Positions 39,592 through 62,797 of a stretch of DNA of 64,000 bases are shown in pieces. Source of the stretch: Cellulophaga sp. L1A9. GTDB lineage: Bacteria > Bacteroidota > Bacteroidia > Flavobacteriales > Flavobacteriaceae. The notes below the pieces were generated by a model. That model was given only the letters and a program-made list of their open reading frames with translations. It was not told the origin of the DNA and ran no database searches. Positions within the stretch are counted from its first letter, which is position 1, and every line of letters begins with the position of its first letter. Both the position numbers and the translations under genes were made by a program. The stretch covers positions 2,294,001 through 2,358,000 of the forward strand of contig NZ_CP047027.1 of the NCBI RefSeq assembly GCF_009797025.1. Reading direction: 5' to 3'.

Positions 39592-39691
39592 AAAAAAAGA
39601 AGACTATTGTATTATTGGAACTTACTTAAAAGTACCACTAAGAGGTTTTGATATCGTATTATTAACTTGCAGCTATTAGTTGAAAAACAAA

Positions 39692-40267
39692 ATGAAAGAA
39701 TTTAAAGGCCGAAAACTAGAAATCGTAAAAACAGCCTCCTCACTTTTTAACACTATGGGGTACAAAAATGTAACCATGCGGGTACTTGCTGAGGAAATAG
39801 GAATAAAAGCGGCCAGTTTATATAATCATATCTCGTCAAAACAAGAAATACTCTCTGCGATTATAATTTCATTGGCAGAACAATTTACCAATAGTATGGA
39901 TACTGTTATGGCCGATGATTCTACCCCTGTTGAAAAAATCAAAAGCATAATTATTCATCATATAGAAATTACATTGAACAATCCGGATGGCACCGCTTCC
40001 TTGCAGAATGATTGGATGTACCTCGAGGGAGATGACCTTATTTACTTCAAAAAAATGCGAAAGCAATATGAAGAAAATTTCAGGCAGATTATAAAAAGTG
40101 GAATAGCTTCTGGTGAAATTAGAAAGATAGATTCTGAAACAATGCTTTTTTCAATACTTACCACACTTAGGTCTTTGTATATATGGTATTCTCGGCAAAA
40201 AGAGATGGATAAAGACAAACTAAAAGCAGATATGATAAGTGTCTTGTTAGACGGTATCCGAACGTAA
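39692..40267 (+). CDS. TetR/AcrR family regulator, probable paa operon repressor
   Basis: A 191-residue TetR-type regulator. The N-terminal helix-turn-helix spans about residues 7-53 (MRVLAEEIGIKAASLYNHISSKQEIL), followed by an all-helical ligand domain. It lies just upstream of paaE on the same strand, and a palindrome (40322-40339) overlaps the paaE promoter, so it probably represses the paa operon and responds to phenylacetyl-CoA, as PaaR proteins do. The frame opens at a TTG (39680); the ATG at 39692 is preferred. It resembles the TetR gene at 62,797. Confidence 0.82.
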   Translation: MKEFKGRKLEIVKTASSLFNTMGYKNVTMRVLAEEIGIKAASLYNHISSKQEILSAIIISLAEQFTNSMDTVMADDSTPVEKIKSIIIHHIEITLNNPDGTASLQNDWMYLEGDDLIYFKKMRKQYEENFRQIIKSGIASGEIRKIDSETMLFSILTTLRSLYIWYSRQKEMDKDKLKADMISVLLDGIRT

Positions 40268-40285
40268 TAATATCTAATTATTTTA

Positions 40286-40318
40286 TTGAATTTTAATTTT
40301 TTTCAATAAATACATTTG
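40286..40318 (+). promoter_or_regulatory. Promoter of the paa operon
   Basis: TTG (40286-40288) and TACATTTG (40311-40318) are separated by 22 bp; the -7 box is a perfect TAnnTTTG. It lies between the TetR gene and paaE, and the palindrome at 40322-40339 starts 3 bp after it. Confidence 0.7.
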
Positions 40319-40321
40319 CGA

Positions 40322-40339
40322 AACTAACAAATGTTAGTT
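40322..40339. promoter_or_regulatory. Candidate TetR operator over the paa transcription start
   Basis: AACTAACAAATGTTAGTT is an 18-bp palindrome with perfect 8-bp arms and an AA centre. Its place directly after the -7 box is where a bound repressor would block initiation. Confidence 0.65.
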
Positions 40340-40364
40340 AGTTTTGTATCAAAGATTGATTCAA

Positions 40365-41438
40365 ATGGCTGACTTTCAAGAATTGATAATTTCCCATATT
40401 GAAAGAACTACCAAAGATTGTTCGGTACTTTCTTTTCAGGTTCCCAATGAGAAAAAGGAACATTTTAAGTTCAAGCAAGGGCAGTACCTCACCTTAGAAT
40501 CGCTCATTGAAAATGAAAATGTAAGACGTTCCTATTCCCTTTGTTCTAGTCCTTTTGATGATGAATGGAAAGTTGCCGTTAAGCAAATTCACAATGGCGT
40601 TTTTTCCACCTTCGTCAATACGAAATTGAAATCTGGAGATACTTTAAAGGTGATGCCTCCCAAGGGGGATTTTTATGTACGCATTGACCCAACAGCTACT
40701 AAAAATTATATTGCTTTTGCTGCAGGTAGCGGTATTACTCCAATTCTATCCATTATAAAAACGCATTTAAAGGCAGAACCCAATAGTACCTTTAAATTGT
40801 TCTATGTCAACCGAACAGCAAAATCCATTATACTAAAAGAGGAAATAGAAGAATTGAAAAACCTGTTTTTCAATAGGTTTCAGGTGTTCTACTTCCTTAC
40901 CAAAGAGCAGCGGGATATTCCATTTTTAAACGGTCGTTTCGACAAGGAGAAGCTGCAAATATTAACGAATTCTTTTATTCAAATAGAAAACACCGATGAT
41001 TGTTTTATTTGCGGACCTCAAGACATGATTTTCTTGATTCGTGATGAACTACAAGCGGCTGGATTATCAAAAGATAAAATACACTATGAACTTTTCTTTT
41101 CAGGAAGTTCGGAAGAGAATCAACAGCGTATTTCTGAAATTTTAGAACAAAAGGTAGAAGGTACCGAAGTGACCATTATCGATGGTAGTAAAGAATTTCA
41201 TTTTGTAATGACCGAAGACCACGATAATATACTAGACGGCGCATTGGCGGCAGGAGCAGATTTGCCTTTCGCATGTAAGGGCGGTGTTTGTAGTACTTGT
41301 AAATGTCGCGTGTTGGAAGGTTCTGTAGAAATGAAAATAAACTATGCTTTAGACGAGAGTGAAGTAGCTCAAAATCTGGTCTTGAGCTGTCAATCAGTAC
41401 CCACTTCAGAAAAGGTAGTGGTTGATTTTGACGTTTAA
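40365..41438 (+). CDS. paaE: 1,2-phenylacetyl-CoA epoxidase, subunit E (reductase)
   Basis: A 357-residue reductase that passes electrons from NADPH to the PaaABC diiron epoxidase. The N-terminal flavin domain has [10 protein letters not shown] (about 50), a ferredoxin-NADP reductase NAD(P) region has [12 protein letters not shown] (about 118), and the C-terminal plant-type 2Fe-2S domain has CKGGVCSTC (about 304-312) with the fourth Cys in LSCQS (about 343). The frame opens at TTG 40344; the ATG at 40365 is the natural start. It is the first gene of the paa operon. Confidence 0.94.
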
Positions 41439-41455
41439 ACATAAATCGTATAGCT

Positions 41456-42412
41456 ATGAGTAAAGAAAAAATCAAAAATTTAGAAGAGCAATTTGATGCA
41501 CGAATTGCCCGCGATGAAAAAATAGAAGCAAAAGACTGGATGCCAGAAAAATATCGCAAAACGCATATTCGGCAAATGTCTCAACATGCACATTCTGAAA
41601 TTGTAGGAATGCTGCCGGAAGGAAACTGGATAAGCAGGGCGCCAAGTTTAAGAAGAAAAGTAGCTTTATTGGCAAAAGTGCAAGATGAAGCGGGGCATGG
41701 TTTATACCTCTATAGCGCTTGCGAGACCTTAGGTATTTCTAGAAACGAATTATATGAGCAATTGCATTCTGGTAAGGCTAAATACTCCAGTATTTTCAAT
41801 TACCCTACCCTTACATGGGCAGACATGGGTGCTATTGGCTGGTTGGTAGATGGTGCTGCAATTATCAACCAGGTGCCATTGTGTAACACTTCTTATGGTC
41901 CTTATGCCAGAGCTATGGTCCGTGTTTGTAAAGAAGAGAGTTTTCATCAACGCCAAGGCTATGAAATCATGATAAAATTGGCGAATGGCAGTCAGGAACA
42001 AAAAGAATTGGCGCAAGATGCTTTAAATCGCTGGTGGTGGCCATCGCTAATGATGTTGGGACCTACGGATGGGGAATCAGTTCATACAGCGCAATCCATG
42101 AAATGGAAATTAAAGCGAAAGACCAATGATGAATTACGTCAACAATTTATAGACCAAACGGTGCCACAGGCAGATTTAATAGGCTTGACTATTCCTGATG
42201 CGGATTTAAAATGGAACGAGGAGCGTAAGAGTTATGACTTTGGAGAAATAAACTGGGACGAGTTTTGGCAAGTGGTCAAAGGACACGGACCATGTAATAA
42301 GGAACGCATGAATGCTCGTGTAAGTGCTTGGGAAAATGGTGGATGGGTTCGGGATGCCGCTATGGCGCATGCGGAAAAAAAAGAAAATAGAAAACTGGAT
42401 AAAGCTGTTTAA
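41456..42412 (+). CDS. paaA: 1,2-phenylacetyl-CoA epoxidase, subunit A (catalytic)
   Basis: A 318-residue diiron oxygenase subunit that epoxidises the ring of phenylacetyl-CoA. Iron ligand motifs are visible in [20 protein letters not shown] (Glu and His, about residues 73-92) and in [13 protein letters not shown] (about 158-170). Length agrees with PaaA of other bacteria. It lies 17 bp after paaE and one base before paaB. Confidence 0.96.
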
Positions 42413-42413
42413 T

Positions 42414-42698
42414 ATGGATAAGAATTGGCCCCTTTGGGAAGTCTTCATTAGAAGTAAAAACGGATTAGAGCATCGTCATGTGGGAAGTCTACATGCCTCA
42501 GATTCTGAAATGGCTTTAGATAATGCACGTGATGTCTATACTAGGCGTAATGAAGGTATTAGTATTTGGGTAACAGAGTCTAAGCATATTACTGCTTCTA
42601 ACCCTGAGCATAGTGGGGAGCTTTTTGAACCTGCAAAAGACAAGATTTACCGTCACCCTACTTTTTATGAGCTGCCAGACGAAGTAAAACACATGTAA
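42414..42698 (+). CDS. paaB: 1,2-phenylacetyl-CoA epoxidase, subunit B
   Basis: A 94-residue small subunit of the PaaABCE complex; it bridges PaaA-PaaC heterodimers. The signature WPLWEVFIRSKNGLEHRHVGSLHA opens the protein, with DVYTRRNEGISIWVTES in the middle. The frame is open far upstream inside paaA, but the ATG at 42414, one base after the paaA stop, gives the family start. Its TAA overlaps the ATG of paaC by one base. Confidence 0.95.
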   Translation: MDKNWPLWEVFIRSKNGLEHRHVGSLHASDSEMALDNARDVYTRRNEGISIWVTESKHITASNPEHSGELFEPAKDKIYRHPTFYELPDEVKHM

Positions 42699-43450
42699 TG
42701 AAAGAAAACTTATATAAGTATATTTTAGCCATTGCCGATAACTGTCTTATTCTAGGGCAACGTTTGGGCGAACTCTGTGGCCATGGTCCCAGTTTAGAAA
42801 CTGATATAGCTTGTACCAATATTTCTCTTGATTTGTTGGGGCAAGTTCGCAGCTACTATCAATATGCCGCTAAAATCGCTGGTGATGGCAGAAAGGAAGA
42901 TGATATTGCCATGCTACGAAAAGAACGTGAGTACGTAAATGTTCTATTGGTAGAGCAGCCCAATACAGATTTCGCACATACCATATGCAGGCAATTTCTA
43001 TTTGATGTGTACCACCTTCTATTTTTAGACCAATTGCAGAACAGCACCGATATGACCTTATCGGCTATTGCAAAAAAATCGATTAAAGAAGTAAGCTACC
43101 ACGAACGTTTTTCTTCCGATTGGGTAAAAAGACTAGGTGACGGTACTACAGAAAGCAAAGAAAAAACGCAAAACGCAATAGATTTTTTATGGACCTATAC
43201 CGACGAGTTTTTTCATCAAACGGAAGCTGACAAGGCTATGCTTGAAGAAGGCGTTGGTGTTGATGTCACTCAATTAAAAGATAGCTACTATCAAAAGGTT
43301 ACTGAAATACTAGATGCGGCAACGCTCTTCGTTCCAGAATCAAAGTGGTTTCAAAAAGGTGGTAAAGAGGGCATCCATACAGAACACATGGGATACATAT
43401 TGAGTGATTTACAGTATATGCAGCGCACATACCCTAATATGGAATGGTAA
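42698..43450 (+). CDS. paaC: 1,2-phenylacetyl-CoA epoxidase, subunit C (structural)
   Basis: A 250-residue ferritin-like subunit that pairs with PaaA. Segments such as NCLILGQRLGELCGHGP (near 15-31), VEQPNTDFAHTICRQFLFD (about 85) and EVSYHERFSSDWVKRLGDGT (about 130) match PaaC. The start overlaps the paaB stop (TAATG) and its end overlaps paaD. Confidence 0.95.
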   Translation: MKENLYKYILAIADNCLILGQRLGELCGHGPSLETDIACTNISLDLLGQVRSYYQYAAKIAGDGRKEDDIAMLRKEREYVNVLLVEQPNTDFAHTICRQFLFDVYHLLFLDQLQNSTDMTLSAIAKKSIKEVSYHERFSSDWVKRLGDGTTESKEKTQNAIDFLWTYTDEFFHQTEADKAMLEEGVGVDVTQLKDSYYQKVTEILDAATLFVPESKWFQKGGKEGIHTEHMGYILSDLQYMQRTYPNMEW

Positions 43451-43947
43451 TAGAAATGCAACATATAGACAAACAATTAATTCCAATTTTAGAAAAGGTA
43501 TCCGACCCAGAGATTCCGGTACTTTCTATTATGGATATGGGAGTTGTTCGTTCTGCGGTCATTTCTGATACTGACACAGTACATGTTGTAATTACACCAA
43601 CCTATAGTGGTTGTCCTGCTATGGATGTGATTGGAGATGATATTACAGCCGCACTTAAAATTGCAGGGTATACTGCTACAATAGAATTAGTGTTGTCACC
43701 TGCATGGACAACAGATTGGATTACCCCAAGAGGACGTAAAGCGCTTGAAGACTATGGCATTGCAGCACCATTAGATGCACATGCCGATAAAGAAGCATTA
43801 TTAGAGAATAAAAGAATTGTAAAATGCACCAATTGCGGTTCTACGGAAACCCAATTGGTAAGTCAATTCGGTTCTACGGCTTGTAAGGCATTGTTTAAAT
43901 GCGAAAACTGTCAAGAACCTTTTGATTATTTCAAATGTCTAAAATGA
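43444..43947 (+). CDS. paaD: PaaD-like protein for epoxidase Fe-S maturation
   Basis: A 167-residue protein with an N-terminal MIP18/DUF59 domain (SDPEIPVLSIMDMGVVRS, about residues 17-34, and TPTYSGCPAMDVI, about 55) and a C-terminal zinc ribbon (CTNCGS and CENC pairs). PaaD is thought to help assemble the iron-sulfur or diiron site of the epoxidase. Start at 43444 overlaps paaC by 7 bp; an inner ATG at 43456 is also possible. Confidence 0.92.
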   Translation: MVIEMQHIDKQLIPILEKVSDPEIPVLSIMDMGVVRSAVISDTDTVHVVITPTYSGCPAMDVIGDDITAALKIAGYTATIELVLSPAWTTDWITPRGRKALEDYGIAAPLDAHADKEALLENKRIVKCTNCGSTETQLVSQFGSTACKALFKCENCQEPFDYFKCLK

Positions 43948-43949
43948 TT

Positions 43950-44729
43950 ATGGCGACTATTCAAAAAGATATAGAGAACAACATTGCTTTTTTAAGACTG
44001 AATCGACCTGATGTCTATAATAGTTTTAATAGGGAAATGGCGCTTCAATTGCAAAAAGAGCTGGACTTCTGTGCAAGTAGTGATTTGGTCAGAGCGGTGG
44101 TTATTTCTGGAAACGGAAAAGCGTTTTGTGCTGGTCAAGACCTGAAAGAGGTGACCGATAAAGAATTAAACCCAGGGTTTCGTACGATTCTAGAAGAGCA
44201 CTACGCTCCGATAATAGAAAAAATCAGGAACCTTAAAAAACCCGTGATTGCTGCCGTAGATGGAGTAGCTGCAGGGGCAGGCGCGAATATAGCATTAGCC
44301 TGTGATGTTGTAGTTGCTAGTGAAAGAACAAGCTTTATACAAGCGTTCAGCGGCATTGGCTTAGTGCCTGATAGTGGCGGCACCTTCTTTTTGCCAAGAC
44401 TTATTGGTTTTCAAAAAGCATCGGCCTTGGCCATGTTGGGTGACAAAATCAAGGCAAAAGAAGCGGAACGTATGGGAATGATTTATAAAGTTTTTACTGT
44501 TGAAGCTTTTGATGAAGAAGTACAAAAAATAGCTGAGAAAATGGCACAAATGCCAACGATGGCACTAGGGCTAATTAAGCAAGCATTAAACAGTTCGATG
44601 ACAAATTCGCTCGAAGACCAATTGAAACTAGAAACAGAGCTGCAATTGAAGGCATCAGAAAGTAATGATTACGAGGAGGGCGTGACGGCATTTCTTCAAA
44701 AAAGAAAACCAGAATTCAAAGGTAACTAG
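43950..44729 (+). CDS. paaG: 1,2-epoxyphenylacetyl-CoA isomerase (oxepin-CoA forming)
   Basis: A crotonase-family enzyme of about 259 residues that converts ring-1,2-epoxyphenylacetyl-CoA to oxepin-CoA. The PaaG-type motifs are FCAGQDLKEV (about 58), GVAAGAGANIALACD (about 105-119) and FSGIGLVPDSGGTFFLPRL (about 131-149), in which the Asp of LVPDSGG is the known catalytic residue. The ATG at 43950 lies 2 bp after paaD; earlier ATGs at 43935 and 43944 would overlap it. Confidence 0.9.
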   Translation: MATIQKDIENNIAFLRLNRPDVYNSFNREMALQLQKELDFCASSDLVRAVVISGNGKAFCAGQDLKEVTDKELNPGFRTILEEHYAPIIEKIRNLKKPVIAAVDGVAAGAGANIALACDVVVASERTSFIQAFSGIGLVPDSGGTFFLPRLIGFQKASALAMLGDKIKAKEAERMGMIYKVFTVEAFDEEVQKIAEKMAQMPTMALGLIKQALNSSMTNSLEDQLKLETELQLKASESNDYEEGVTAFLQKRKPEFKGN

Positions 44730-44730
44730 T

Positions 44731-45900
44731 ATGAATGTAGGCGTTATAGGTTCAGGAACAATGGGCAGCGGTATTGCACAAGTAGCGGCAACTTCAGGTT
44801 GCACCGTAAATTTGTATGACACCAATCAAGCGGCATTGGATAAAGCTAAAGCAGTTCTCGAAAAAATACTACTACGTTTAATTGAGAAAGGGCGAATAGA
44901 TACCGCGGAGAAAAATAGAATTCAAAACAAAATCTCCTATGTGAATCAGTTAAAAGATTTAGCAGATTCAGACCTTACTATAGAGGCGATTATTGAAAAT
45001 CTTGATATCAAGAAAAAAGTATTTATAGAATTAGAGGGTTACGTTTCCGATGATTGTATTATCGCTTCCAATACATCGAGCCTTTCTATTGCTTCTATAG
45101 CAGCTTCATTGAAAAAGCCAGACCGTTGTATTGGAATTCACTTTTTCAATCCTGCGCCATTAATGAAATTGGTAGAGGTGATTCCTGCTATTCAAACTTC
45201 AAAAGAGGTAGTGCAAAAATCCGTAGCGATTATTTCCGATTGGAAAAAAGTGGTAGCCGTAGCCAAAGACACTCCAGGTTTTATAGTAAACAAAGTGGCA
45301 CGACCATTTTACAGTGAATCTCTTAGAATATATGATGAAGGTATTGCATCTTTCGAAACCATAGATTATAGTTTAAAAACTTTGGGAGGCTTCCGTATGG
45401 GACCATTTGAGCTAATGGATTTTATAGGAAACGATGTCAATTATGCGGTAACCGAATCCGTTTTTGCCTCTTTTTATTATGATGATCGATACAAACCTTC
45501 CTTTACACAAAAAAGACTTTCAGAAGCAGGATACCTAGGTAGAAAATCGGGTAGAGGATATTACGATTATACGAGCATCTCTGATTTAGAAAAGCATCAG
45601 GATAAATATAAAAGCAGCGATGTATTTTTGAAGCAACAAATATTGGAGCGTGTTCTGGCAATGCTTATCAATGAAGCGGCAGATACCTTATTTATGGGAA
45701 TTGCTACTGCAGAGGATATTGATAATGCAATGACCAAAGGCGTAAACTACCCTAAAGGATTGTTAGCATGGGCCGATGAAAAAGGAACGGATTGGTGTGT
45801 AACAATGATGGATAAGTTATATGATGAATATCATGAAGATAGATATCGATGTAGCCCATTATTGCGAAGTATGAGCAAGGAAAATAAAACATTTTTTTAA
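44731..45900 (+). CDS. paaH: 3-hydroxyacyl-CoA (3-hydroxyadipyl-CoA) dehydrogenase
   Basis: A 389-residue NAD-dependent dehydrogenase for 3-hydroxyadipyl-CoA oxidation. The N-terminal Rossmann motif VGVIGSGTMGSGIAQVAA covers residues 3-20, the catalytic His is in GIHFFNPAPLMKLVEV (about 137), and two 3HCDH C-terminal domains follow (about 184-280 and 295-385). It is shorter than the E. coli PaaH (475 residues). It starts 1 bp after paaG and overlaps paaI by one base. Confidence 0.92.
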   Translation: MNVGVIGSGTMGSGIAQVAATSGCTVNLYDTNQAALDKAKAVLEKILLRLIEKGRIDTAEKNRIQNKISYVNQLKDLADSDLTIEAIIENLDIKKKVFIELEGYVSDDCIIASNTSSLSIASIAASLKKPDRCIGIHFFNPAPLMKLVEVIPAIQTSKEVVQKSVAIISDWKKVVAVAKDTPGFIVNKVARPFYSESLRIYDEGIASFETIDYSLKTLGGFRMGPFELMDFIGNDVNYAVTESVFASFYYDDRYKPSFTQKRLSEAGYLGRKSGRGYYDYTSISDLEKHQDKYKSSDVFLKQQILERVLAMLINEAADTLFMGIATAEDIDNAMTKGVNYPKGLLAWADEKGTDWCVTMMDKLYDEYHEDRYRCSPLLRSMSKENKTFF

Positions 45901-46304
45901 TGGAAGGAAAAGATATTCCCTTTAGAATGCTAGATGCGGATCCATTCAGTAATTGGTTGGGTATAGCGATACTGGAATCTAGGGTAGGTTATTGCAGGGT
46001 AGGTATGACCATCCGCAGAGAAATGTTGAACAGCATGGGAAAAGCTCACGGTGGCATAACATTCTCTTTGGCGGATACTGCTTTTGGGTTTACCAGCAAT
46101 ACCCACGGTAAATATGCGGTCTCTATTGAAACATCTATCAATCATATTGAAGCATTAGAGGAAGGCGATTTTATTACTGCGGAATGTAGTTTAGAAAAAG
46201 TAAAGAATAAAGTAGGGTTTAATATCATCGCAGTAAAAAAAGGTGATGATTTGGTAGCACTATTCAAAGGTGTCGTATACAGAACACAAAAAGATTGGGA
46301 ATAA
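45900..46304 (+). CDS. paaI: Hydroxyphenylacetyl-CoA thioesterase PaaI
   Basis: A 134-residue hotdog-fold thioesterase, which rescues CoA from dead-end phenylacetyl-CoA derivatives. The catalytic region GKAHGGITFSLADTAFGF (about residues 46-63) matches PaaI. The ATG overlaps the paaH stop (TAATG). Confidence 0.92.
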   Translation: MEGKDIPFRMLDADPFSNWLGIAILESRVGYCRVGMTIRREMLNSMGKAHGGITFSLADTAFGFTSNTHGKYAVSIETSINHIEALEEGDFITAECSLEKVKNKVGFNIIAVKKGDDLVALFKGVVYRTQKDWE

Positions 46305-46305
46305 A

Positions 46306-47514
46306 ATGAAAGAAGCATATATTATAGATGGCGTTAGAACACCCATCGGAAGTTATCAAGGTACATTATCGTCTGTAAGAACAGATGATTTAGGGGCTTT
46401 GGTGATTAAGGAAATCGTATCAAGAAATCCAGCTATCCCAAAAGAAGCCTATGACGATGTTATCATGGGTTGCGCAAACCAAGCAGGAGAAGATAACCGT
46501 AATGTAGCGCGAATGTCTTCCTTATTAGCAGGATTGCCTTTTAGTGTTCCTGGTGAAACGGTAAATCGTTTATGTAGTTCTGGCCTATCCGCAATCATTC
46601 ATGCAAATAGAGCTATCAAAGCAGGGGACGGTGATGTATTTATTGCTGGTGGTGTGGAGAATATGACACGTGGGCCATATGTCATTTCAAAACCCTCAAC
46701 AGGTTTTGGTGGTGATTCTAGAATGTATGATTCTACATTCGGATGGCGATTTATCAATCCGCAAATGCAAAGAATGTACGGTACGGACGGCATGGGAAAT
46801 ACAGCTGAAAACCTAGTGGATAAATACAATATTTCAAGGGAAGACCAAGACACCTTTGCCTATGGTAGCCAGATGAAGGCAACCAAAGCACAGGAAAATG
46901 GTCGTTTGGCAAAAGAGATTATTACCGTTGAAATTCCACAACGTAAAAAAGACCCTATTCAATTTTCAAAAGACGAGTTTGTAAAGCCAACAACAACTCC
47001 TGAGATTTTGGCAAAACTAAGACCAGCATTTAAAAAAGAAGGCGGTAGTGTAACCGCTGGAAATTCCTCTGGATTAAATGATGGTGCTGCGGCAACTATA
47101 ATCGCTTCTGAAGATGCGGTTAGAAAATATAATCTTAAGCCAATCGCTAGAATTGTAAGTTCTGCGGTGGTTGGTGTAGAACCTAGAATAATGGGTATTG
47201 GACCCGTAGAAGCATCAAATAAAGCTTTGAAAAAAGCGGGCTTGACCATGGCAGATATGGATGTTATCGAATTGAACGAGGCTTTTGCATCGCAGGCACT
47301 TGCCTGTATAAGAGCTTGGGGGTTAGCTGATGATGATGCCAGAATAAACCCAAATGGAGGTTCTATTGCCATCGGACATCCACTTGGGGTGACAGGTACA
47401 AGAATTGCCTATTCCGCAGCTTTAGAACTGCACGAACAAAACAAGAGGTACGCTTTGATTACCATGTGTATTGGTGTGGGGCAGGGGTATGCCGCAATTA
47501 TTGAAAGAGTCTAA
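46306..47514 (+). CDS. paaJ: 3-oxoadipyl-CoA/3-oxo-5,6-dehydrosuberyl-CoA thiolase
   Basis: A 402-residue thiolase acting twice in the pathway to release acetyl-CoA and succinyl-CoA. The nucleophile Cys90 is in NRLCSSGLSAI, with EAFASQA (about 327), GHPLGVTGTR (about 358) and CIGVGQG near the C-terminus. The frame is open to 46270 inside paaI, but the ATG at 46306, one base after the paaI stop, gives the expected N-terminus KEAYIIDGVRTPIGSYQG. Confidence 0.95.
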   Translation: MKEAYIIDGVRTPIGSYQGTLSSVRTDDLGALVIKEIVSRNPAIPKEAYDDVIMGCANQAGEDNRNVARMSSLLAGLPFSVPGETVNRLCSSGLSAIIHANRAIKAGDGDVFIAGGVENMTRGPYVISKPSTGFGGDSRMYDSTFGWRFINPQMQRMYGTDGMGNTAENLVDKYNISREDQDTFAYGSQMKATKAQENGRLAKEIITVEIPQRKKDPIQFSKDEFVKPTTTPEILAKLRPAFKKEGGSVTAGNSSGLNDGAAATIIASEDAVRKYNLKPIARIVSSAVVGVEPRIMGIGPVEASNKALKKAGLTMADMDVIELNEAFASQALACIRAWGLADDDARINPNGGSIAIGHPLGVTGTRIAYSAALELHEQNKRYALITMCIGVGQGYAAIIERV

Positions 47515-47530
47515 GTAAAGGAAAAGAGGT

Positions 47531-54014: not shown

Positions 54015-54090
54015 GTCATTGAATTATTATTCTATTAAAATGAATTATAATTATATTTTTTCGAATATATAAAATAATTTAACACTATTT

Positions 54091-54162: not shown

Positions 54163-54179
54163 TCTAAAAAGACATATTT

Positions 54180-55592
54180 ATGAAAACGTATAAAGTTAGT
54201 ATTAATGGAGAGCTAAAAGCAAGCACGAACACCTTTGAAGTAAAGAATCCAGCAACAGATGAAGTGATTGGTTATGCACCGATTTCGAATGAAGGAGAAG
54301 TAAAAGAAGCAATCGCTGCTGCCAAAGCTGCACAAAAAGACTGGGCTGCGCAATCGGATGAATATAGAAAAGGCAAGCTTATGGAAGCTGCCAAGGTTTT
54401 AGAAGATAACACCGAATACTTAGCACAATGGATAACCAAAGAACAAGGTAAGGCCATGGCCGGTCCAGGTTCTATGTTTGAAATGCAAGCCTGTGTGGGT
54501 TGGACACAAGTACCAGCATCATTGGATTTACCGGTTGAAGTAGTCTTTGAAGACGAAGCTAGAAGGGATGAGCTACATAGAAAACCAGTAGGCGTTGTAG
54601 GTGCCATTGCACCTTGGAACTGGCCTTTAATGATTGCCATTTGGCAAATTATGCCATCACTTCGTGCAGGGAATACCGTGGTAATCAAACCTTCGGAGTA
54701 TACCACTATTGGTACTTTAGAAATGGTTCGTTTGCTAAATACGGTCCTTCCAGCAGGGGTATTAAATTCTATATCTGGTGGCGGTAAAGTAGGGGCCATG
54801 TTAGTTGAAAGTAAAGACGTAGATAAAATAATGTTTACAGGCTCTACCAGTACAGCACGAAAAATCATTGAGGCATCAGGAAATAACATGGCCAGATTGA
54901 CTCTGGAATGTGGAGGTAACGACCCAGCTATTATTTTGCCAGGAACAGATATGACTTCTAAAGCTGGAGATTTATTCTGGGGAGCTTTCATAAATCAGGG
55001 ACAAACTTGTGCATGCGCTAAAAGACTTTACGTACATGAAAATGACTATGAAAACGTAATCAATATACTTAATGATGTCAGTGGGCAAATGGCTATGGGT
55101 AATGGTATGGATGAAGGTGTGTTGTTAGGACCTATTCAGAATAAAATGCAATTTGACAAAGTAGTTGATTTGGTGGAAGATGCCAAGGCAAATGGAGCAC
55201 GTGTTATTCGTGGCGGAAAAGCCACAGGTGGCGCAGGCTATTTTTATCCTATTACACTAATAGCTGATGTAGATAATGGTTCTCGTATTGTTGATGAAGA
55301 ACAATTTGGACCAGTGTTACCAATTATTAAATATAAAACTGTTGAGGAAGCTATACAAAAAGCTAACGATACTCGAACTGGTTTGGGTGCCTCTGTATGG
55401 AGCGATAATATAGACGAAGCCACCAAAGTAGCCCAACAAATAGAATCTGGTACGGTATGGATCAACCAACATGGTGCAATACACCCAATGGTTCCATTTG
55501 GAGGAGTTAAAGATTCTGGTTACGGAGTTGAGTTTGGTATTGAGGGTTTAAAATCGGTAACACAACCAAGGGTTATCAGCATTAAAAAATAA
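54180..55592 (+). CDS. NAD(P)-dependent aldehyde dehydrogenase, probable phenylacetaldehyde dehydrogenase
   Basis: A 470-residue aldehyde dehydrogenase. The cofactor segment is APWNWPLMIA (about 142), the general base Glu is in LECGGNDP (about 241) and the nucleophile Cys in GQTCACAKR (about 277). Context gives the substrate: an amine oxidase lies downstream and phenylacetate-CoA ligase is next, so oxidation of phenylacetaldehyde to phenylacetate is the best guess (FeaB or PadA role). It starts a run of five plus-strand genes. Confidence 0.85.
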   Translation: MKTYKVSINGELKASTNTFEVKNPATDEVIGYAPISNEGEVKEAIAAAKAAQKDWAAQSDEYRKGKLMEAAKVLEDNTEYLAQWITKEQGKAMAGPGSMFEMQACVGWTQVPASLDLPVEVVFEDEARRDELHRKPVGVVGAIAPWNWPLMIAIWQIMPSLRAGNTVVIKPSEYTTIGTLEMVRLLNTVLPAGVLNSISGGGKVGAMLVESKDVDKIMFTGSTSTARKIIEASGNNMARLTLECGGNDPAIILPGTDMTSKAGDLFWGAFINQGQTCACAKRLYVHENDYENVINILNDVSGQMAMGNGMDEGVLLGPIQNKMQFDKVVDLVEDAKANGARVIRGGKATGGAGYFYPITLIADVDNGSRIVDEEQFGPVLPIIKYKTVEEAIQKANDTRTGLGASVWSDNIDEATKVAQQIESGTVWINQHGAIHPMVPFGGVKDSGYGVEFGIEGLKSVTQPRVISIKK

Positions 55593-55622
55593 TACAATCA
55601 ATCTAACAGAAATATCTTTTAA

Positions 55623-56915
55623 ATGTATAATCCAAAATTAGAGACCTTACCTCTAGAAGAATTACGAAAATTACAGAATCAGCGGCTGGCTGTGATGCTC
55701 AAGAGAATTTACGATAAAGTCCCTTTTTATAAGAATAAGTTCGATGCTATAGGGTTGAAACCAGAAGACATAAAAGGAGTTGAAGATTTACATAAACTAC
55801 CTTTTACCAAAAAGAGTGATTTACGTGATCACTATCCTTTCGGTCTTTTTACCTGTAAAGAAGACCAATTAAGAAGAATACATTGCTCTAGTGGTACAAC
55901 AGGAAAACCTATTGTAGTGGGATATACTAAAAACGACTTGGATGTTTTTGATGAAGTGGTGGCGCGATCTTTGGCTTGTGCTGGTGCTAAACCAGGAATG
56001 AAATTGCACAATGCGTATGGGTACGGTCTTTTTACTGGAGGTTTGGGTATGCACTCTGGTGCAACCAAATTTGGTATGTCTGTTATTCCTATTTCAGGAG
56101 GAATGACAGACAGGCAATTAGACCTTCTAGAAGATTTCAAATCTGAGGTCATTTGCTGTACACCGTCATATGCACAAACAATTGCCAATGAATGTGTAAA
56201 AAGAGGTATTGATGTTGCCTCAAGGTTTAACCTTAAATATGCTATTCTTGGTGCAGAACCTTGGACAGAAGCTATCCGTCAGGAAATAGAGCAAAAGCTA
56301 CACTTAAAAGCAACTAACATCTATGGTTTAAGTGAAATTATAGGGCCCGGAGTTTCTCAAGAAGATTTTGAAGAACAGGGTACAGGAAGTTATATCTGGG
56401 AAGATCATTTTTTTCCAGAAATTGTAGATAAAGACACGGGCAAACCACTGCCTTATGGTGAGGAAGGTGTTTTAGTATTCACAACCCTTACTAAGGAAGC
56501 TTTCCCTGTTTTGCGTTATTGGACCAACGATATTTGCAGTCTCACGTATGACCATAGCCACAAAAGAACCCACATAAAAATGGGGGCTTTAAAAGGAAGG
56601 TCAGACGATATGTTGATTATTAGAGGTGTTAACCTATTCCACACTCAAGTAGAGAGTATCATAGAAAATATACCGCAACTCACACCAAATTATCAACTTA
56701 TCGTAACCAAGCAGAATGCAATGGATTGCGTTGAAGTTAAAGTGGAAACTTCAAATTCCAATGACATTAATAACGTTGATTTATCAAAAGGTTTTATCAA
56801 AAAAATCAAAGATAATATAGGAATTTCAATGAAAGTCACCTTGGTAGCACCAGGTGGTGTTCCAAGAAGTGAAGGAGGAAAGCTCAAAAGAATTTTAGAT
56901 TTAAGAACTAAATAA
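55623..56915 (+). CDS. paaK: Phenylacetate-CoA ligase
   Basis: A 430-residue adenylate-forming ligase that joins phenylacetate and CoA with ATP, the entry step of the pathway. The ATP motif CSSGTTGKPIVVGYT (about 88-102), YGLSEIIGPGV (about 236) and the C-terminal GRSDDMLIIRGVNLF (about 325) match PaaK. Length is normal. It is 30 bp after the aldehyde dehydrogenase gene, separate from the main paa run. Confidence 0.95.
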   Translation: MYNPKLETLPLEELRKLQNQRLAVMLKRIYDKVPFYKNKFDAIGLKPEDIKGVEDLHKLPFTKKSDLRDHYPFGLFTCKEDQLRRIHCSSGTTGKPIVVGYTKNDLDVFDEVVARSLACAGAKPGMKLHNAYGYGLFTGGLGMHSGATKFGMSVIPISGGMTDRQLDLLEDFKSEVICCTPSYAQTIANECVKRGIDVASRFNLKYAILGAEPWTEAIRQEIEQKLHLKATNIYGLSEIIGPGVSQEDFEEQGTGSYIWEDHFFPEIVDKDTGKPLPYGEEGVLVFTTLTKEAFPVLRYWTNDICSLTYDHSHKRTHIKMGALKGRSDDMLIIRGVNLFHTQVESIIENIPQLTPNYQLIVTKQNAMDCVEVKVETSNSNDINNVDLSKGFIKKIKDNIGISMKVTLVAPGGVPRSEGGKLKRILDLRTK

Positions 56916-56939
56916 TCACTAACAACTAAATCAATAATT

Positions 56940-59405
56940 ATGAAGAACTTTTTAGTAACGGCCCTGATTTTCGTTTTCAGTATGGGAATGGTATCAGCGC
57001 AAAAAACGGTTGATGGCACCGTAAAAGACAATTTAGGAGAACCGCTACCGGGAGTTAGTGTGTTGATAAAGAACACAACAACAGGTACTACTACAGACTT
57101 TGATGGAAATTATGCCATTGAAGTAACTGAGGGCAATGTTCTTAAATTTTCTTATATAGGATATACAAGTAAGTCTATTACAGTAGGCGCTAATAACACC
57201 TACAATATATCTTTAGCAGAAAATGCACAGGCGCTTAATGAAATTGTATTAACCTCAAGGAAAAAGGCCGAGTACGCTAAAGACATTCCTATTAGTATTA
57301 CTGCTATAGGTGGTGTTGAGCTGCAAAAAAGCGGTTCTTTTGAATTCACAGACTACGCGTCTAAAGTACCCAACCTCTCTTTTGGTAAAGGTGGGGGTGG
57401 TGGTGATCTTGCTGATGGCAGAACATCAAACTCCATTACCATTAGGGGTATCACGGGTAATGCAACAACAGCTTTTTATTTAGATGAGATTCCGTTACCA
57501 GAAACTATTGACCCTAAATTAGTAGACATCAAACAAGTTGAAGTTTTACGTGGTCCTCAAGGAACTTTATATGGCTCAAGTGCCATGGGAGGTGCATTGA
57601 AGGTACTAACAAACGAACCGAATACTAAGGGTTTTTATGCTAATGTAGGTACCGAACTGAGCACAGTAAAAGAAGGTGGAGTGAATTATGGTGGAGACGT
57701 TGTATTTAATGTACCTCTAAAAGAAAATAAAGCAGCTTTAAGATTGGTAGGGTTTTACAATTTAAAGAGCGGTATATTCGATAAGACACCTAATAACTAT
57801 ACTCCTTTGAATGGTAATCATCCAGTACTAACTGACGTAAAGGAAGATGTTGATGAGGAAAGAAGTTATGGTTTTCATGCGAGTTTAAAGTTTACTCCGA
57901 ATGAAAAATGGACTATTCTTCCAAAATTAATCTATCAGAAAACAGAAGCTGACGGTTATAACCTTGCCGATATTCAGCCAGGGAATTTTACTGCTATTAG
58001 GTCTGCCGATATCGATGAGGATTTTGAGGATTCCTTTACCTCTACATCGCTTACCATTAAGCACGACACAGGAAAAGGTGAGTTTGTTTCAGCAACATCT
58101 TATTTTGATAGATTTTTTAGTGAGACCGAAGATATTACAGAATTTTTCAACTTTGCTTTCGAGATTGATGGAGATGACCTGTCTTATCCTGTAGCCATAA
58201 AAAGAGATGGTGACTACAATAAGTTTATTCAGGAATTACGTTATATTTCTGATACGGAGTCTAAAGTTAATTTTGCTGCTGGTGTGTTTTACGCGAATGA
58301 GACCCTTGATGAGATAAGTATAAGCGAATCTCCTGGCTTAGGTCAGTTTATTGAAGCCGCCGAGGAGGGTGATACATCGTTAGATGATATTTATCGTACT
58401 GAAAATAAATCTACTATAACCGAAATTGCCATATTCTCTGAATTGTACATAGACTTAACAGATAAATTAATAGGTACGTTAGGCGTGCGTTATTTTGATG
58501 CAAAAAGTGAGAGAGAGCGAACCGCATTTCCTTCCTTGGTATCAAATTATGAGCTTTTAGATGGTGAATTGCCAGACATAAATAACGATGGTTTTAATCC
58601 AAAATTTGGGTTGAGCTATAAAATCGATGATAATAACTTAATTTATACCACAGTATCAAAAGGGTTTAGAATTGGCGGTGTGAATGCTAATTTGCCCTCA
58701 TTTAGTGTTGATGAGGCTATTGAACTTTTTGGTACAACCGAAGTTCCGCAAACCTATAAGTCAGATAACTTATGGAGTTATGAACTAGGGGGTAAATTAG
58801 CCTCAAAGAACAGAAAGTTCGTATTGAATACCGCAGTATTCTATAACAACTGGAACGACTTGCAGCTTAGAAGTCTATTACCAGCATCAGGATACAGTTT
58901 CCTTACCAATGTAGGTGCTGCTAGAAGTGCAGGCTTTGAGTTCGATGCAACTGTATATCCGACAAAAGGACTTTCATTGGGTGCCAGTTTTGGTTATATA
59001 GATTCTAAAATAACAGATTTGGGTGAAAATGAAATTTTTAGTCAAGCTGAAGAAGGAGCCGAAATTTTACTAGTACCCTCTGTAACAGCAGCTGGTAATG
59101 CTGAATACTCTTGGGATGCATTTGGAGGCAATATGTTTATAAGAGCTGATATTCAACATTCAGGCGAGCGTTTTAGTAGTTTTGATAGAACGCCTGAACG
59201 TACCTTGGGTGCATACACAATCGTCAATTCCAGACTAGGTTTGCAATTAAACAAAGCAGATATATCACTGTTTGTCAATAACTTAACCAATGAAAATGCT
59301 AACTTTGGCGATGTTATTTCCTTAGGTGCTGAAGTACCTGGTCGAGTTCGTTATGCACAGAGTAGACCAATCACAATTGGCACCTCTTTTAGGGTTAAAT
59401 TTTGA
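56940..59405 (+). CDS. TonB-dependent outer-membrane receptor
   Basis: An 821-residue receptor. A signal peptide (MKNFLVTALIFVFSMGMVSAQ) is followed by a CarboxypepD_reg-like domain (residues 22-105, VKDNLGEPLPGVSVLIKNT), a plug domain (about 115-225, with QVEVLRGPQGTLYGSSAMGGALK) and a beta-barrel ending in aromatic FRVKF. No SusD-like lipoprotein is beside it, so it is not a SusC-type pair. Being embedded between paaK and the amine oxidase, it may import an aromatic amine, a related compound or a copper complex. Confidence 0.9.
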   Translation: MKNFLVTALIFVFSMGMVSAQKTVDGTVKDNLGEPLPGVSVLIKNTTTGTTTDFDGNYAIEVTEGNVLKFSYIGYTSKSITVGANNTYNISLAENAQALNEIVLTSRKKAEYAKDIPISITAIGGVELQKSGSFEFTDYASKVPNLSFGKGGGGGDLADGRTSNSITIRGITGNATTAFYLDEIPLPETIDPKLVDIKQVEVLRGPQGTLYGSSAMGGALKVLTNEPNTKGFYANVGTELSTVKEGGVNYGGDVVFNVPLKENKAALRLVGFYNLKSGIFDKTPNNYTPLNGNHPVLTDVKEDVDEERSYGFHASLKFTPNEKWTILPKLIYQKTEADGYNLADIQPGNFTAIRSADIDEDFEDSFTSTSLTIKHDTGKGEFVSATSYFDRFFSETEDITEFFNFAFEIDGDDLSYPVAIKRDGDYNKFIQELRYISDTESKVNFAAGVFYANETLDEISISESPGLGQFIEAAEEGDTSLDDIYRTENKSTITEIAIFSELYIDLTDKLIGTLGVRYFDAKSERERTAFPSLVSNYELLDGELPDINNDGFNPKFGLSYKIDDNNLIYTTVSKGFRIGGVNANLPSFSVDEAIELFGTTEVPQTYKSDNLWSYELGGKLASKNRKFVLNTAVFYNNWNDLQLRSLLPASGYSFLTNVGAARSAGFEFDATVYPTKGLSLGASFGYIDSKITDLGENEIFSQAEEGAEILLVPSVTAAGNAEYSWDAFGGNMFIRADIQHSGERFSSFDRTPERTLGAYTIVNSRLGLQLNKADISLFVNNLTNENANFGDVISLGAEVPGRVRYAQSRPITIGTSFRVKF

Positions 59406-59440
59406 TAGTTAATTATTACTAACCATTAAGTTTAAGTGTC

Positions 59441-59474
59441 AATCACATCCGTCAATTTTGATGGATGTGATTTT
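59441..59474 (+). terminator. Hairpin terminator after the TonB receptor gene
   Basis: A 15-bp stem with one G-T pair: AATCACATCCGTCAA (59441-59455) with TTGATGGATGTGATT (59458-59472), followed by TTT. It could weaken read-through into the amine oxidase gene, which would then need its own promoter. Confidence 0.7.
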
Positions 59475-59490
59475 CTAAATAATACATAGC

Positions 59491-61461
59491 ATGAAAAAAA
59501 CAATCTTACCATTTCTATTTTTGTTCACTTTAATAGGGTGCGAACAAGAAAATAATGAAGCGATAAAAACTTCTACAGATACGACTACTACTGCAAAGAT
59601 AGTGCAACACCCCCTTGATGCACTCACCGAAGCTGAAATCTTAGAAGTCAAGGAGATTTTAATGACTTCAAAGAAAATTTCAGAAACCACTCGATTTCCT
59701 GAAATAACTCTGTTAGAGCCTTCTAAAGAATCAGTTTATGCTTGGGGTCGTGGTAATGATATAACCAGAAAAGCTGCATTGATTATAAGAGATGATAAAA
59801 AAACATATGAAGCTATTGTTGATATTTCTAAAGAAGAGGTTCTGCAATGGGAAGAAATTAAAGATGTTCAACCTTCTTTAATGCTCGAAGAATGGATGCA
59901 AGCCGGAGAAATATGGAAGACTGACAAACGTGTAACAGACGCTTTAAAAGAGCGTGGTTATAAGATTGAAGATGTTGCTGGAGCACCTTTAACTACAGGT
60001 TTTTTTGGCACAGAAACTAGAGATCAAAGACTGTTAAAAGTTTGGTTGTTAGATATAAAGGACATTAAAAGGAATTTATTCGCAAAACCAATTAACGGCA
60101 TCACTCCCGTAGTTGATATCAACAAAGGTGAAGTCATTGATGTACTTATCGATGATAATGTTGGTCGAAATGATACAACTTATGACTATGATGAAGCCTC
60201 GGTCAATGCGTATAAATTAAAACCCGTAACCTTAAATTCACCAGAAGGTGATAATTTTTCATTTACGGATGATGGAAAAATTACTTGGGATAAATGGAAA
60301 TTTCATTTGAGAATGGATAAACGATTTGGGGCGGTAGTTTCTCTTGCAGAATTTGATGGGCAATCTGTAGCCTATCAAATATCCGCCAACGAGATGTTCG
60401 TCCCTTATCAAGATGCTTCGGAAGATTGGAAATATCGCTCTTACATGGATATAGGTGAATATGGCTTTGGCTTGTTGTCTTCCGCATTACAGGAAGGAAC
60501 GGATGTGCCAGATAATGCCACATTACTGAATGCTGTTATCCCTATGGATGATGGTACACCCTTGCTGTATGAAAAGATTATAGGCATTTTTGAACGGAAC
60601 ACGGGTAGACCATTATGGAGGCATGCTGAATTTTTAAATGAGACTCATGAAAGTAGGGCGGAAATAGAATTAGTTGTGCGTACCATTCCTGTTGTAGGAA
60701 ACTATGATTATGTGGTGGACTATGTTTTTAGCTCAAAGGGAATATTAAACATTGAGGTTGGTGCAACCGGTATGGATGCTGTTAAGGCAGCCAAAGCGAA
60801 AACAATGAGTGACCCGACTGCGATGTCCGAAACAAGAGTGGGTAATCTTGTAGCACCGAATCTAATCGGAGTGTACCATGACCATTTTTTATCCTTCAGA
60901 ATTGATTTGGATGTTGATGGCATTCAAAATTCTTTTGCTACCGATGAAATTGTTCCTGTAAAATACCCTAATAACACTCGAAAAAGTGGTTGGGAAGTTG
61001 TAGAGCATCCAGAATTAAAAGAAGGAGCCATTACAGAAAACAAAGAAGGTCATGATGGTTTCTGGAAAGTGGTAAATAAAAATTCGAAAAACAGTCTGGG
61101 TCAACATAAAAGCTATCAGATTTTAGGGCATAGCTATCTTTCGGTTCTAGACGATGAAGACTATCCGCAGAAAAGGGCAGCTTGGTCTAAACAGCAATTA
61201 TGGGTAACTCCCTATGATAAATCTGAACTATATCCGTCCGGTAAATACCCTAATCAAAGTGATGGTTCTGATGGTATTTTAAAGTGGATAGCGCAAGATA
61301 GGTCTATTGATAATACCGATATTGTTTGTTGGTACACCATGGGCTTTCATCATATTACCTTGCCTGAAGATTGGCCGGTCTTGCCTACTTTTTGGCACTC
61401 GGTAACGCTAAGGCCCGCTAAGAGTTTTGACCGTAATCCCGCCATAGAAATTGGAAAGTAA
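59491..61461 (+). CDS. Copper amine oxidase (primary-amine oxidase), lipoprotein
   Basis: A 656-residue copper/topaquinone amine oxidase; it turns a primary amine into an aldehyde, releasing ammonia and hydrogen peroxide. The topaquinone precursor is Tyr405 in GNYDY. The catalytic base is Asp320 in YMDIGEYG. Copper ligands are His463 and His465 (YHDHF) and His621 (HHITLPEDWP). A lipobox (TLIGC, Cys at about 17) shows export and membrane anchoring. By context (aldehyde dehydrogenase, PaaK) the substrate is probably phenethylamine, as for TynA. The SCO gene overlaps its end. Confidence 0.92.
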   Translation: MKKTILPFLFLFTLIGCEQENNEAIKTSTDTTTTAKIVQHPLDALTEAEILEVKEILMTSKKISETTRFPEITLLEPSKESVYAWGRGNDITRKAALIIRDDKKTYEAIVDISKEEVLQWEEIKDVQPSLMLEEWMQAGEIWKTDKRVTDALKERGYKIEDVAGAPLTTGFFGTETRDQRLLKVWLLDIKDIKRNLFAKPINGITPVVDINKGEVIDVLIDDNVGRNDTTYDYDEASVNAYKLKPVTLNSPEGDNFSFTDDGKITWDKWKFHLRMDKRFGAVVSLAEFDGQSVAYQISANEMFVPYQDASEDWKYRSYMDIGEYGFGLLSSALQEGTDVPDNATLLNAVIPMDDGTPLLYEKIIGIFERNTGRPLWRHAEFLNETHESRAEIELVVRTIPVVGNYDYVVDYVFSSKGILNIEVGATGMDAVKAAKAKTMSDPTAMSETRVGNLVAPNLIGVYHDHFLSFRIDLDVDGIQNSFATDEIVPVKYPNNTRKSGWEVVEHPELKEGAITENKEGHDGFWKVVNKNSKNSLGQHKSYQILGHSYLSVLDDEDYPQKRAAWSKQQLWVTPYDKSELYPSGKYPNQSDGSDGILKWIAQDRSIDNTDIVCWYTMGFHHITLPEDWPVLPTFWHSVTLRPAKSFDRNPAIEIGK

Positions 61462-62092
61462 GTTTAAGTATATAATCTTTGTTAGTTTGGCTTTTGTTTG
61501 TACGAGTTGCTCTTTTTTTTCAACTCGTTCAGACAAGAGTATTGCCTTATTGGATGAACCAGAACTACCTATTTTGTCGCCAAAGGTGGCAGGGGTGTAT
61601 TTGCCTATTGACTCCTTTCAATTTACCAATCAGTATGCTGATACTATTTCACAAGAAGATGTGAAAGGTAAAGTATACGTCGCTGAATTCTTTTTTTCGA
61701 GCTGCCCATCTATTTGTCCGGTAGTTTCCAAACAATTAAAACGTGTTTTCAAAACCTATGAGATTGAATCGAATTTTATGATTCTTTCGCATACCATAGA
61801 CCCCGAACATGACACAATTTTAAAACTAAAGGATTACTATGAGAATACATTAGAAATTGAAAGTGTCTCAAACTGGCACTTGCTAACCGGAAACCGAGAT
61901 GCAATTTATAACCTAGCGAATTTTAGCTATGGCGCGGTTGTTTATAATGACGACAATAAGCTTAAGAACAACATAATGCATAGTGGCGCATTATTACTGG
62001 TAGACCGTGAAGGTTTCGTGCGAGGTATGTATGATGGAAAGGATAAAGAATCGGTTGACAGATTGATAGCCGATATTCGAAAGTTACTTTAA
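61451..62092 (+). CDS. SCO-family copper chaperone, lipoprotein
   Basis: A 213-residue SCO1/SenC protein. The copper site is CPSIC (Cys85 and Cys89) with His177 in IMHSGALLLVD, on a thioredoxin fold. A lipoprotein signal peptide ends in VCTSC (Cys about 20). No ATG is present before the signal peptide, so the start is TTG at 61451, overlapping the amine oxidase stop by 11 bp. SCO proteins usually serve cytochrome oxidase; this tight coupling suggests copper delivery to the amine oxidase (inference). Confidence 0.88.
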   Translation: MESKFKYIIFVSLAFVCTSCSFFSTRSDKSIALLDEPELPILSPKVAGVYLPIDSFQFTNQYADTISQEDVKGKVYVAEFFFSSCPSICPVVSKQLKRVFKTYEIESNFMILSHTIDPEHDTILKLKDYYENTLEIESVSNWHLLTGNRDAIYNLANFSYGAVVYNDDNKLKNNIMHSGALLLVDREGFVRGMYDGKDKESVDRLIADIRKLL

Positions 62093-62156
62093 TTCGCTAT
62101 GGGTAAATAAATAGAAATATTTAAAAATATAAAGCTTGTAATTTTGTTTTCATATT

Positions 62157-62190
62157 GGACTGTTATCTGGCTGCAACCTAATAACGGTCC
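62157..62190. repeat. Inverted repeat between convergent SCO and TetR genes
   Basis: GGACTGTTAT (62157-62166) pairs with ATAACGGTCC (62181-62190) with one G-T pair and a 14-nt loop. It could be a weak terminator, as it lies between two gene ends, but neither side has a strong T tract. Confidence 0.45.
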
Positions 62191-62212
62191 AAAAAACAAT
62201 CAATAGAGAAAA

Positions 62213-62797
62213 CTAATAATTTTCATCCACTCCACTAAATACAATATCCAATAGGGTTTTTTCTAGTTCGTCAAGACTAACATTACTAGTGTCCGCATAA
62301 ATTTCCGAGTTATAAATCCAACGAAGAGAAGAAAGAATAGCGTTCAGGGTAATTTCTATATTAGCGGTTTTGAGCTCACCTGCTTTCATACCTCCTAAAA
62401 TTACCTCTTTTAGTTTTTTCCGATAATCCAATCGAATCTTTACAAATTTAGACAGCGATGGTTCCTCTAAATGCTTCCAGTCATGTGTAATTAGCGCCGT
62501 AATATGCTGATTTTCTGTAGCGACTCTAATATGCATTTTAATAATTTCCTTGAGTTTAAAACGATAAGAATCTTCTGTACTTGTAACCTCTTGAATACCC
62601 TTATAAAACTTGTTCGCAATAGATAGCAATAAGATGCTAAGTATTTCTTGTTTCGATTTAATATGATTGTACAGACTTGGTGCTTTAACACCCAATCTTC
62701 TGGCTATGTCGTTCATGGAAGTGGCACTATAGCCCATCTCATTAAAAAGAACAGCAGCTTCTTCTACAATGATTTGTTTCTTACTTTTTCTATTCAA
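62213..62797 (-). CDS. TetR/AcrR family regulator, paralogue of the paa-linked regulator
   Basis: A 194-residue TetR-type protein; helix-turn-helix at about residues 25-50 (MNDIARRLGVKAPSLYNHIKSKQEIL). It shares the pattern KAxSLYNHIxSKQEIL and much of the following helix with the regulator at 39,692, so the two are probably duplicates that bracket the catabolic block. The start is TTG at 62797, supported by a TAAATTTG promoter box 23 bp upstream and by a stop just before it in frame. Confidence 0.83.
   Translation of the reverse strand: MNRKSKKQIIVEEAAVLFNEMGYSATSMNDIARRLGVKAPSLYNHIKSKQEILSILLLSIANKFYKGIQEVTSTEDSYRFKLKEIIKMHIRVATENQHITALITHDWKHLEEPSLSKFVKIRLDYRKKLKEVILGGMKAGELKTANIEITLNAILSSLRWIYNSEIYADTSNVSLDELEKTLLDIVFSGVDENY

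Follow-up and report, generated by a model that had tools for sequence, protein, structure and literature searches.

In Escherichia coli, a copper amine oxidase (CAO) permits growth on phenethylamine, FeaR controls the CAO gene together with feaB, and deletion of tynA lowers the paa transcripts, according to PMC4640556. PaaZ of the same organism couples ring opening with aldehyde oxidation, as stated in PMC9007349. In the window analysed here (the whole stretch of 64,000 nucleotides from Cellulophaga sp. L1A9), we found predicted genes for such a route on an island that spans 38113 to 65280 (27,168 bp), its right end lying 1.3 kb past the 64-kb window. It is highly likely that this island is an element integrated by its own tyrosine recombinase in the 3' end of a tRNA-Leu(CAA) gene and carrying a phenethylamine route. 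On paper, the predicted route from the amine to acetyl-CoA and succinyl-CoA is complete. The pathway is known, the packaging and the parts are new; no description of such an arrangement was found in open-access PMC titles and abstract starts. An earlier note had proposed a compact island for the use of phenethylamine or a related arylalkylamine, its amine step being placed at the cell envelope, and the sequence evidence given below (att sites, integrase and the lipoprotein-type Cys in 4/4 CAOs) fits that proposal. The borders drawn there, 39680..62797, miss both ends of the island, which includes the integrase. In the left part of the window (1-35496), the analysis covered composition, tRNA genes and short motifs.

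The genes named in that note, coding for the CAO, an aldehyde dehydrogenase (ALDH), PaaK, the Paa set, a TonB-dependent receptor, Sco, two TetR regulators, an AraC regulator and PckA, were all recovered by family searches at their places in the window, and the roles given here are those predicted by family matches. From left to right, the order is integrase, tetR1, paaE-A-B-C-D-G-H-I-J-Z-F-Y, pckA, araC (opposite strand), ALDH, paaK, TonB receptor, CAO, Sco and tetR2 (opposite strand). The first group reads as follows, assigned by family match unless stated otherwise:

39680..40267, plus strand: TetR regulator 1 (TetR_C_24), PaaR-like by position (family and place)
40323..40338, no strand: putative operator palindrome ACTAACA-AA-TGTTAGT, between tetR1 and paaE (conserved)
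40344..41438, plus strand: paaE, reductase of phenylacetyl-CoA epoxidase (first ATG 40365)
41456..42412, plus strand: paaA
42414..42698, plus strand: paaB (ORF listed from 42324; Pfam match starts near 42423)
42698..43450, plus strand: paaC
43444..43947, plus strand: paaD
43935..44729, plus strand: paaG, isomerase
44731..45900, plus strand: paaH, 3-hydroxyacyl-CoA dehydrogenase, short form
45900..46304, plus strand: paaI, thioesterase
46306..47514, plus strand: paaJ, 3-oxoadipyl-CoA thiolase (pcaF model)
47531..50029, plus strand: paaZ, ALDH, MaoC hydratase and C-terminal DUF1569/DinB-type domain
50040..50786, plus strand: enoyl-CoA hydratase in the paaF position (Pfam ECH_1, conserved place)
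50783..51382, plus strand: paaY, hexapeptide-repeat protein
51425..53071, plus strand: pckA, second PEP carboxykinase gene of the genome (NCBIfam 712/590)

Scores are given as bits/NCBIfam curated cut-off. PaaA (528/280), PaaB (145/85), PaaC (279/133), PaaD (181/108), PaaJ (603/597 with the pcaF model) and PaaZ (894/563) scored above their cut-offs. PaaE (411/421), PaaG (308/345), PaaI (95/119) and PaaY (234/320) received the right best name with scores below the cut-off, PaaK was likewise best-named at 581/646, and PaaH reached 468/669 with 389 aa against a model of 503 positions. The pathway set of PaaABC(D)E epoxidase, PaaG, PaaZ, PaaJ and PaaK is present, with PaaE, PaaG and PaaK under the NCBIfam cut-offs. 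PaaZ of the island keeps Glu255 and Cys294, which we take to be its catalytic residues. The gene at 50040-50786, a candidate paaF in the earlier note, does encode a member of the enoyl-CoA hydratase family (Pfam ECH_1, E 4e-33) in a conserved place, but it is only weakly PaaF-like (60 bits, cut-off 371). The island pckA is 78% identical to the chromosomal copy, of which there is one in the host and likewise in three congeners checked.

The locus was compared with 18 other paa loci of the family, 16 of them taken from the best-scoring paaA matches and therefore non-random, plus those of Lacinutrix mariniflava AKS432 and uncultured Flavobacteriaceae YR26-21-1-G. The order tetR-E-A-B-C-D-G-H-I-J-Z-F-Y is kept in 18/18, in some with intervening genes, and all of them have the hydratase gene in the same slot, after paaZ and before paaY. 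The full amine module recurs in the two named loci, which lack pckA and the second TetR gene. The gaps measure -13 to 42 bases from paaE to pckA and 30, 24, 85 and -11 bases from ALDH to Sco; two operons are therefore likely. Between tetR and paaE, ACTAAC-N4-GTTAG[TC] is found in 19/19 loci, one per stretch, and the longer form ACTAACA-N2-TGTTAG[TC] in 16/19. This is strong evidence that the palindrome is the TetR operator, by which TetR1 would repress the paa operon from ahead of paaE. No further operator copies were found in a 101-kb stretch made up of the window and the following 37 kb.

The second group comprises the amine module and its neighbouring regulators:

53118..54014, minus strand: AraC regulator, divergent from ALDH (family match)
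54180..55592, plus strand: aldehyde dehydrogenase, taken as phenylacetaldehyde dehydrogenase (family match)
55623..56915, plus strand: paaK, phenylacetate-CoA ligase (family match)
56940..59405, plus strand: TonB-dependent receptor (family match)
59491..61461, plus strand: CAO, lipoprotein-type signal, Cys17 (alignment with E. coli CAO)
61451..62092, plus strand: SCO1/SenC copper protein (Sco), Cys85-x3-Cys89, lipoprotein-type signal (family match)
62213..62797, minus strand: TetR regulator 2 (TetR_C_24), without counterpart in the 18 other paa loci

Residues 22 to 652 of the CAO align with the E. coli amine oxidase (1d6u_A) with 394 bits, and the primary-amine oxidase model gave 536 bits, below its cut-off of 651. 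The alignment places Asp320, Tyr405 (in N-Y-D), His463, His465 and His621 at sites that we take to be the catalytic Asp, the TPQ tyrosine and the three His ligands. Read by eye, the signal ends in a lipoprotein-type Cys in 4/4 CAOs and 3/3 Sco proteins. The ALDH scored similarly with StyD (372 bits, cut-off 850) and aminobutyraldehyde dehydrogenase (390 bits, cut-off 615), so its substrate is not set by sequence. Since the AraC gene is divergent from the ALDH gene and this placement is kept in 4 loci, AraC control of the ALDH operon is predicted. In the gap between the TonB receptor and CAO genes, a 9-bp perfect hairpin is followed by T's (59442-59471), possibly an attenuator or processing site within the apparent operon.

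From these genes, the following course of events can be proposed. By analogy with E. coli, the CAO would oxidize phenethylamine to phenylacetaldehyde at the envelope, and the aldehyde would be converted to phenylacetate, then to phenylacetyl-CoA, and would enter the Paa steps. AraC would turn on the ALDH-PaaK-TonB-CAO-Sco operon, Sco may aid copper loading of the CAO, and the TonB receptor may import copper or the substrate. We infer the substrate, the regulation, the copper loading and the present mobility of the element; phenethylamine is our candidate substrate because the path encoded on the island is complete for this amine. It counts against this assignment that several Paa proteins score under the curated cut-offs and that some members of the ALDH and CAO families act on other amines and aldehydes. 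Indeed, CAOs can be broad, the E. coli CAO is also named tyramine oxidase (PMC4640556) and the ALDH match is non-specific. The same island could then serve tyramine or another arylalkylamine, with phenylacetate coming from elsewhere. We regard this as rather unlikely: in a search of the island, none of its ORFs was assigned to a 4-hydroxyphenylacetate pathway, so a full path exists there only for the unsubstituted phenylacetyl product, and the CAO shares an apparent operon with PaaK. Another way to read the module is that the CAO acts mainly in nitrogen acquisition or in the production of hydrogen peroxide against competitors, the carbon pathway being secondary. With the E. coli enzyme, hydrogen peroxide is set free in the medium and phenethylamine can serve as a nitrogen or carbon source (PMC4640556), and the CAO of the island looks like an envelope lipoprotein. 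Carbon use, however, best explains why the CAO is found with ALDH, PaaK, pckA and all of the ring pathway, which makes a main role in nitrogen supply or competition improbable.

The genus survey of cargo genes covered paaA and CAO, and pckA in three congeners. Both paaA and the CAO gene were present in 1/18 genus genomes, this one only, and in 0/17 congeners; within this sample of the genus, the island is new. Among 397 family genomes, CAO gave 3 matches and was full-length only in this genome, the two others being fragments of 97 and 53 residues (E 1.9e-4 and 5.8e-4). Among 395 phylum genomes, 13 matched, with 100% identity for its own and 25-57% over the matched stretch for the others; near-full-length CAOs of the phylum were 25-36% identical. 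A contig scan with the CAO as query, limited in reach to close relatives, returned 9 loci. The CAOs of L. mariniflava and YR26-21-1-G are 75-76% identical, and a third locus, from a 5.9-kb contig recorded under Porticoccaceae, has a 64% identical CAO with ALDH and an AraC gene. In the distant CAO loci (five of the phylum, L071-L075, and two of Hyphomicrobiales, L064 and L067), only the CAO matched at E<=1e-6 and 30% of the query. TonB receptor, CAO and Sco occur together in all 3 Flavobacteriaceae-type loci with this CAO. One of the 16 loci chosen by paaA (G310) has a GMC oxidoreductase after AraC-ALDH-PaaK, in the position of the amine cassette, and no TonB, CAO or Sco match in the next 18 kb; an origin of the ALDH in amine use is therefore not a necessary assumption. 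L. mariniflava contains both the GMC gene and the amine cassette.

The ends of the island are marked by the following features:

38031..38112, plus strand: tRNA-Leu(CAA), putative integration target (last 15 bp are the att core)
38113..64000, no strand: island, in-window part (flanks contiguous in congeners G001, G010 and G002)
38221..38263, no strand: inverted pair of AATTCGGTTGCAC, probable integrase arm sites (third copy at 65195)
38296..39591, plus strand: tyrosine recombinase (Arm-DNA-bind_5, Phage_int_SAM_5, Phage_integrase)
63939..64000 (to 64418 beyond the window), plus strand: start of a 159-aa element protein (no significant Pfam match)
64418-65101, following the 159-aa protein: 227-aa element protein (no significant Pfam match)

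The integrase gene, starting at 38296, adjoins the end of the tRNA gene at 38112. The att core consists of 15 bp of the tRNA 3' end (38098-38112), and a second copy lies at 65266-65280 (extended window coordinates); it recurs once in the 101-kb stretch, where about 2e-5 matches are expected by chance. The 13-base repeat AATTCGGTTGCAC forms an inverted pair near the left att and is present as a single copy beside the right one, each copy at most about 150 bp from the att core (3 copies versus 0.0024 expected per 101 kb). This placement is presumably that of integrase arm sites, and the copies are probably such sites. An uninterrupted site was found in 3/6 congeners whose tRNA region was compared (G001, G010 and G002). 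There, the left-flank match runs directly into the right-flank match with an overlap at the att core, from which G010 and G002 deviate by one base. In G017, G009 and G007, the sequence to the right of the tRNA is a different one and shows no empty site. With tRNA target, att repeats, integrase and uninterrupted sites, the block is, as judged from its sequence, a tRNA-targeted integrated island in the strict sense, which the tyrosine recombinase would have inserted at the 3' end of tRNA-Leu(CAA). Although the presence of paaA in 129/397 family genomes makes loss possible in principle, an old chromosomal locus that was retained here and lost in 17 congeners, with the integrase as a chance neighbour, is very improbable in view of the att duplication exactly at the ends, the arm repeats, the uninterrupted sequence in three congeners, the element-type proteins at the right end and the absence of paaA from the rest of the genus sample.

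Shortly beyond the right end of the island lie two similar sensor-kinase-like genes (L003 5948-7840, window ~66.9-68.8 kb), a stretch that has matches at several places in congeners. It weighs against the element reading that no relaxase or conjugation gene was recognised among the Pfam matches of the island ORFs and that the end proteins have no significant Pfam match, so that these genes offer no account of its transfer. Between tetR2 and the end proteins, 1.1 kb (62798-63938) has no ORF of at least 90 aa and perhaps represents decayed genes or an origin.

Relatives of the 159-aa end protein were found in 88/299 family genomes. In 30 loci with this protein (L112-L141, own included), the 227-aa partner adjoins in 5, and an integrase lies inside the short flank in 3, one of these only 26% identical. 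When larger stretches were inspected, G225 was found to contain the end-protein pair with an integrase (52% identical) and a tRNA-Ser, and upstream of the pair (L144 582-19461) HsdR, HsdM and HsdS of a type I restriction system and other large ORFs. G260 has the pair with a tRNA-Met, and no integrase match in 20 kb. Since the pair is found by an integrase or tRNA elsewhere with other cargo, the element appears to belong to a set of tRNA-targeted elements whose cargo varies. The 159-aa protein had no match in plasmids; the 227-aa protein had one weak plasmid match (Marivirga, 26.6%) and matched a PHROG of unknown function (E 3.5e-7). A second copy of the 159-aa protein (61%) is encoded elsewhere in the same genome (G000:C1:3841952-3842350), and another related element may therefore be present.

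PaaZ of the island has a C-terminal tail (residues 676-832, window 49556-50026); the match to the PaaZ model stops at residue 677. PaaZ was 829-846 aa long in the 16 loci measured. All 18 other paa loci encode the tail as well, which makes it a feature of the paa loci of this family and not one peculiar to the island. It is conserved, with 14 other tails 48-75% identical to that of the island, and H716, H821, H824 and H825, which include an H-x3-H, are invariant in 15/15 sequences. The commonest weak Pfam matches were DUF1569 and DinB_2, each in 10/15 members at E<=1; the island tail reached 14.2 bits with DUF1569, under the 21-bit Pfam cut-off. A search with a tail profile found relatives in 68/247 phylum genomes. 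Of 10 loci returned by it, 7 have the tail fused to PaaZ (own included) and 2 have no fusion; in the remaining one, L161 from another Bacteroidota family, the domain precedes a PaaF-like hydratase within one fused protein (4133-5350, minus strand). Standalone relatives exceed the DUF1569 cut-off in 5/8 cases scanned, as does the hydratase fusion. In the neighbourhoods of 20 further homologues, a paa gene was nearby in 1/20 (the fused hydratase of L161), so that the standalone forms are not linked to Paa by their neighbours. Modelled from two sequences, the tail came out all-helical, but the model was too weak for use (mean pLDDT 52.9), and a fold search with it gave no match at E<=0.001. The single match of the tail profile to PDB sequences, an antibody chain (E 1.6), was discarded as chance.

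Bacillus subtilis proteins of the DinB type transfer bacillithiol in a metal-dependent manner and have three conserved His (H67, H160 and H164 in BstA); where superfamily members have more than one domain, the choice of substrate has been attributed to the second (PMC5815605). The bacillithiol synthesis gene bshA was above cut-off in 18/18 genus genomes; among the controls, every genome gave some match and 3/14 were above cut-off. Given the invariant His, the DUF1569 relatives, the DinB-type precedent and bshA in the genus, it is plausible that the tail could act on a Paa intermediate, either by thiol transfer or as a thiol-dependent isomerase. More tentatively, PaaZ may be a three-function enzyme, namely, an ALDH, an oxepin-CoA hydrolase and a metal-dependent (bacilli)thiol transferase or thiol-dependent isomerase that handles a reactive or wrongly configured Paa intermediate; we consider this possible, with the odds against it. 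If it were true, the island would bring the pathway along with its own detoxification step and a copper-loading function dedicated to an amine oxidase of the envelope. The extra domain is an addition to a pathway usually drawn as complete, and is the part likeliest to surprise specialists.

A whole peripheral-to-central catabolic route, with its regulators and a gluconeogenic gene, could have been brought by one integration event, and it becomes testable which extra parts (Sco, TonB receptor) a Bacteroidota cell needs for an envelope CAO. Closest to the island are the loci of L. mariniflava and YR26-21-1-G, which have the same order from tetR to paaY and then AraC-ALDH-PaaK-TonB-CAO-Sco, with proteins 44-91% identical to those of the island. 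They differ in having other ORFs between some paa genes and in lacking pckA and the second TetR gene, and in L. mariniflava the GMC oxidoreductase gene lies between paaK and the TonB gene. Read by eye, both share their flanks, with alaS on one side and an Lrp/AsnC regulator and keto-acid dehydrogenase genes on the other. The elements at tRNA-Ser (G225) and tRNA-Met (G260) share with the island the end-protein pair beside a tRNA; upstream of the pair, G225 carries type I restriction-modification genes, whereas the cargo here is catabolic. With the E. coli TynA-FeaB-FeaR system and paa operon, the island has in common a CAO, a predicted phenylacetaldehyde dehydrogenase, an AraC regulator, PaaK and the Paa enzymes. 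A predicted TetR operator stands before paaE, whereas E. coli has the repressor PaaX (PMC4640556). In contrast to E. coli, the genes of the island are all in one integrated element, its CAO is lipoprotein-type and adjoined by Sco and a TonB receptor, and it has an extra pckA and a PaaZ with a third domain.
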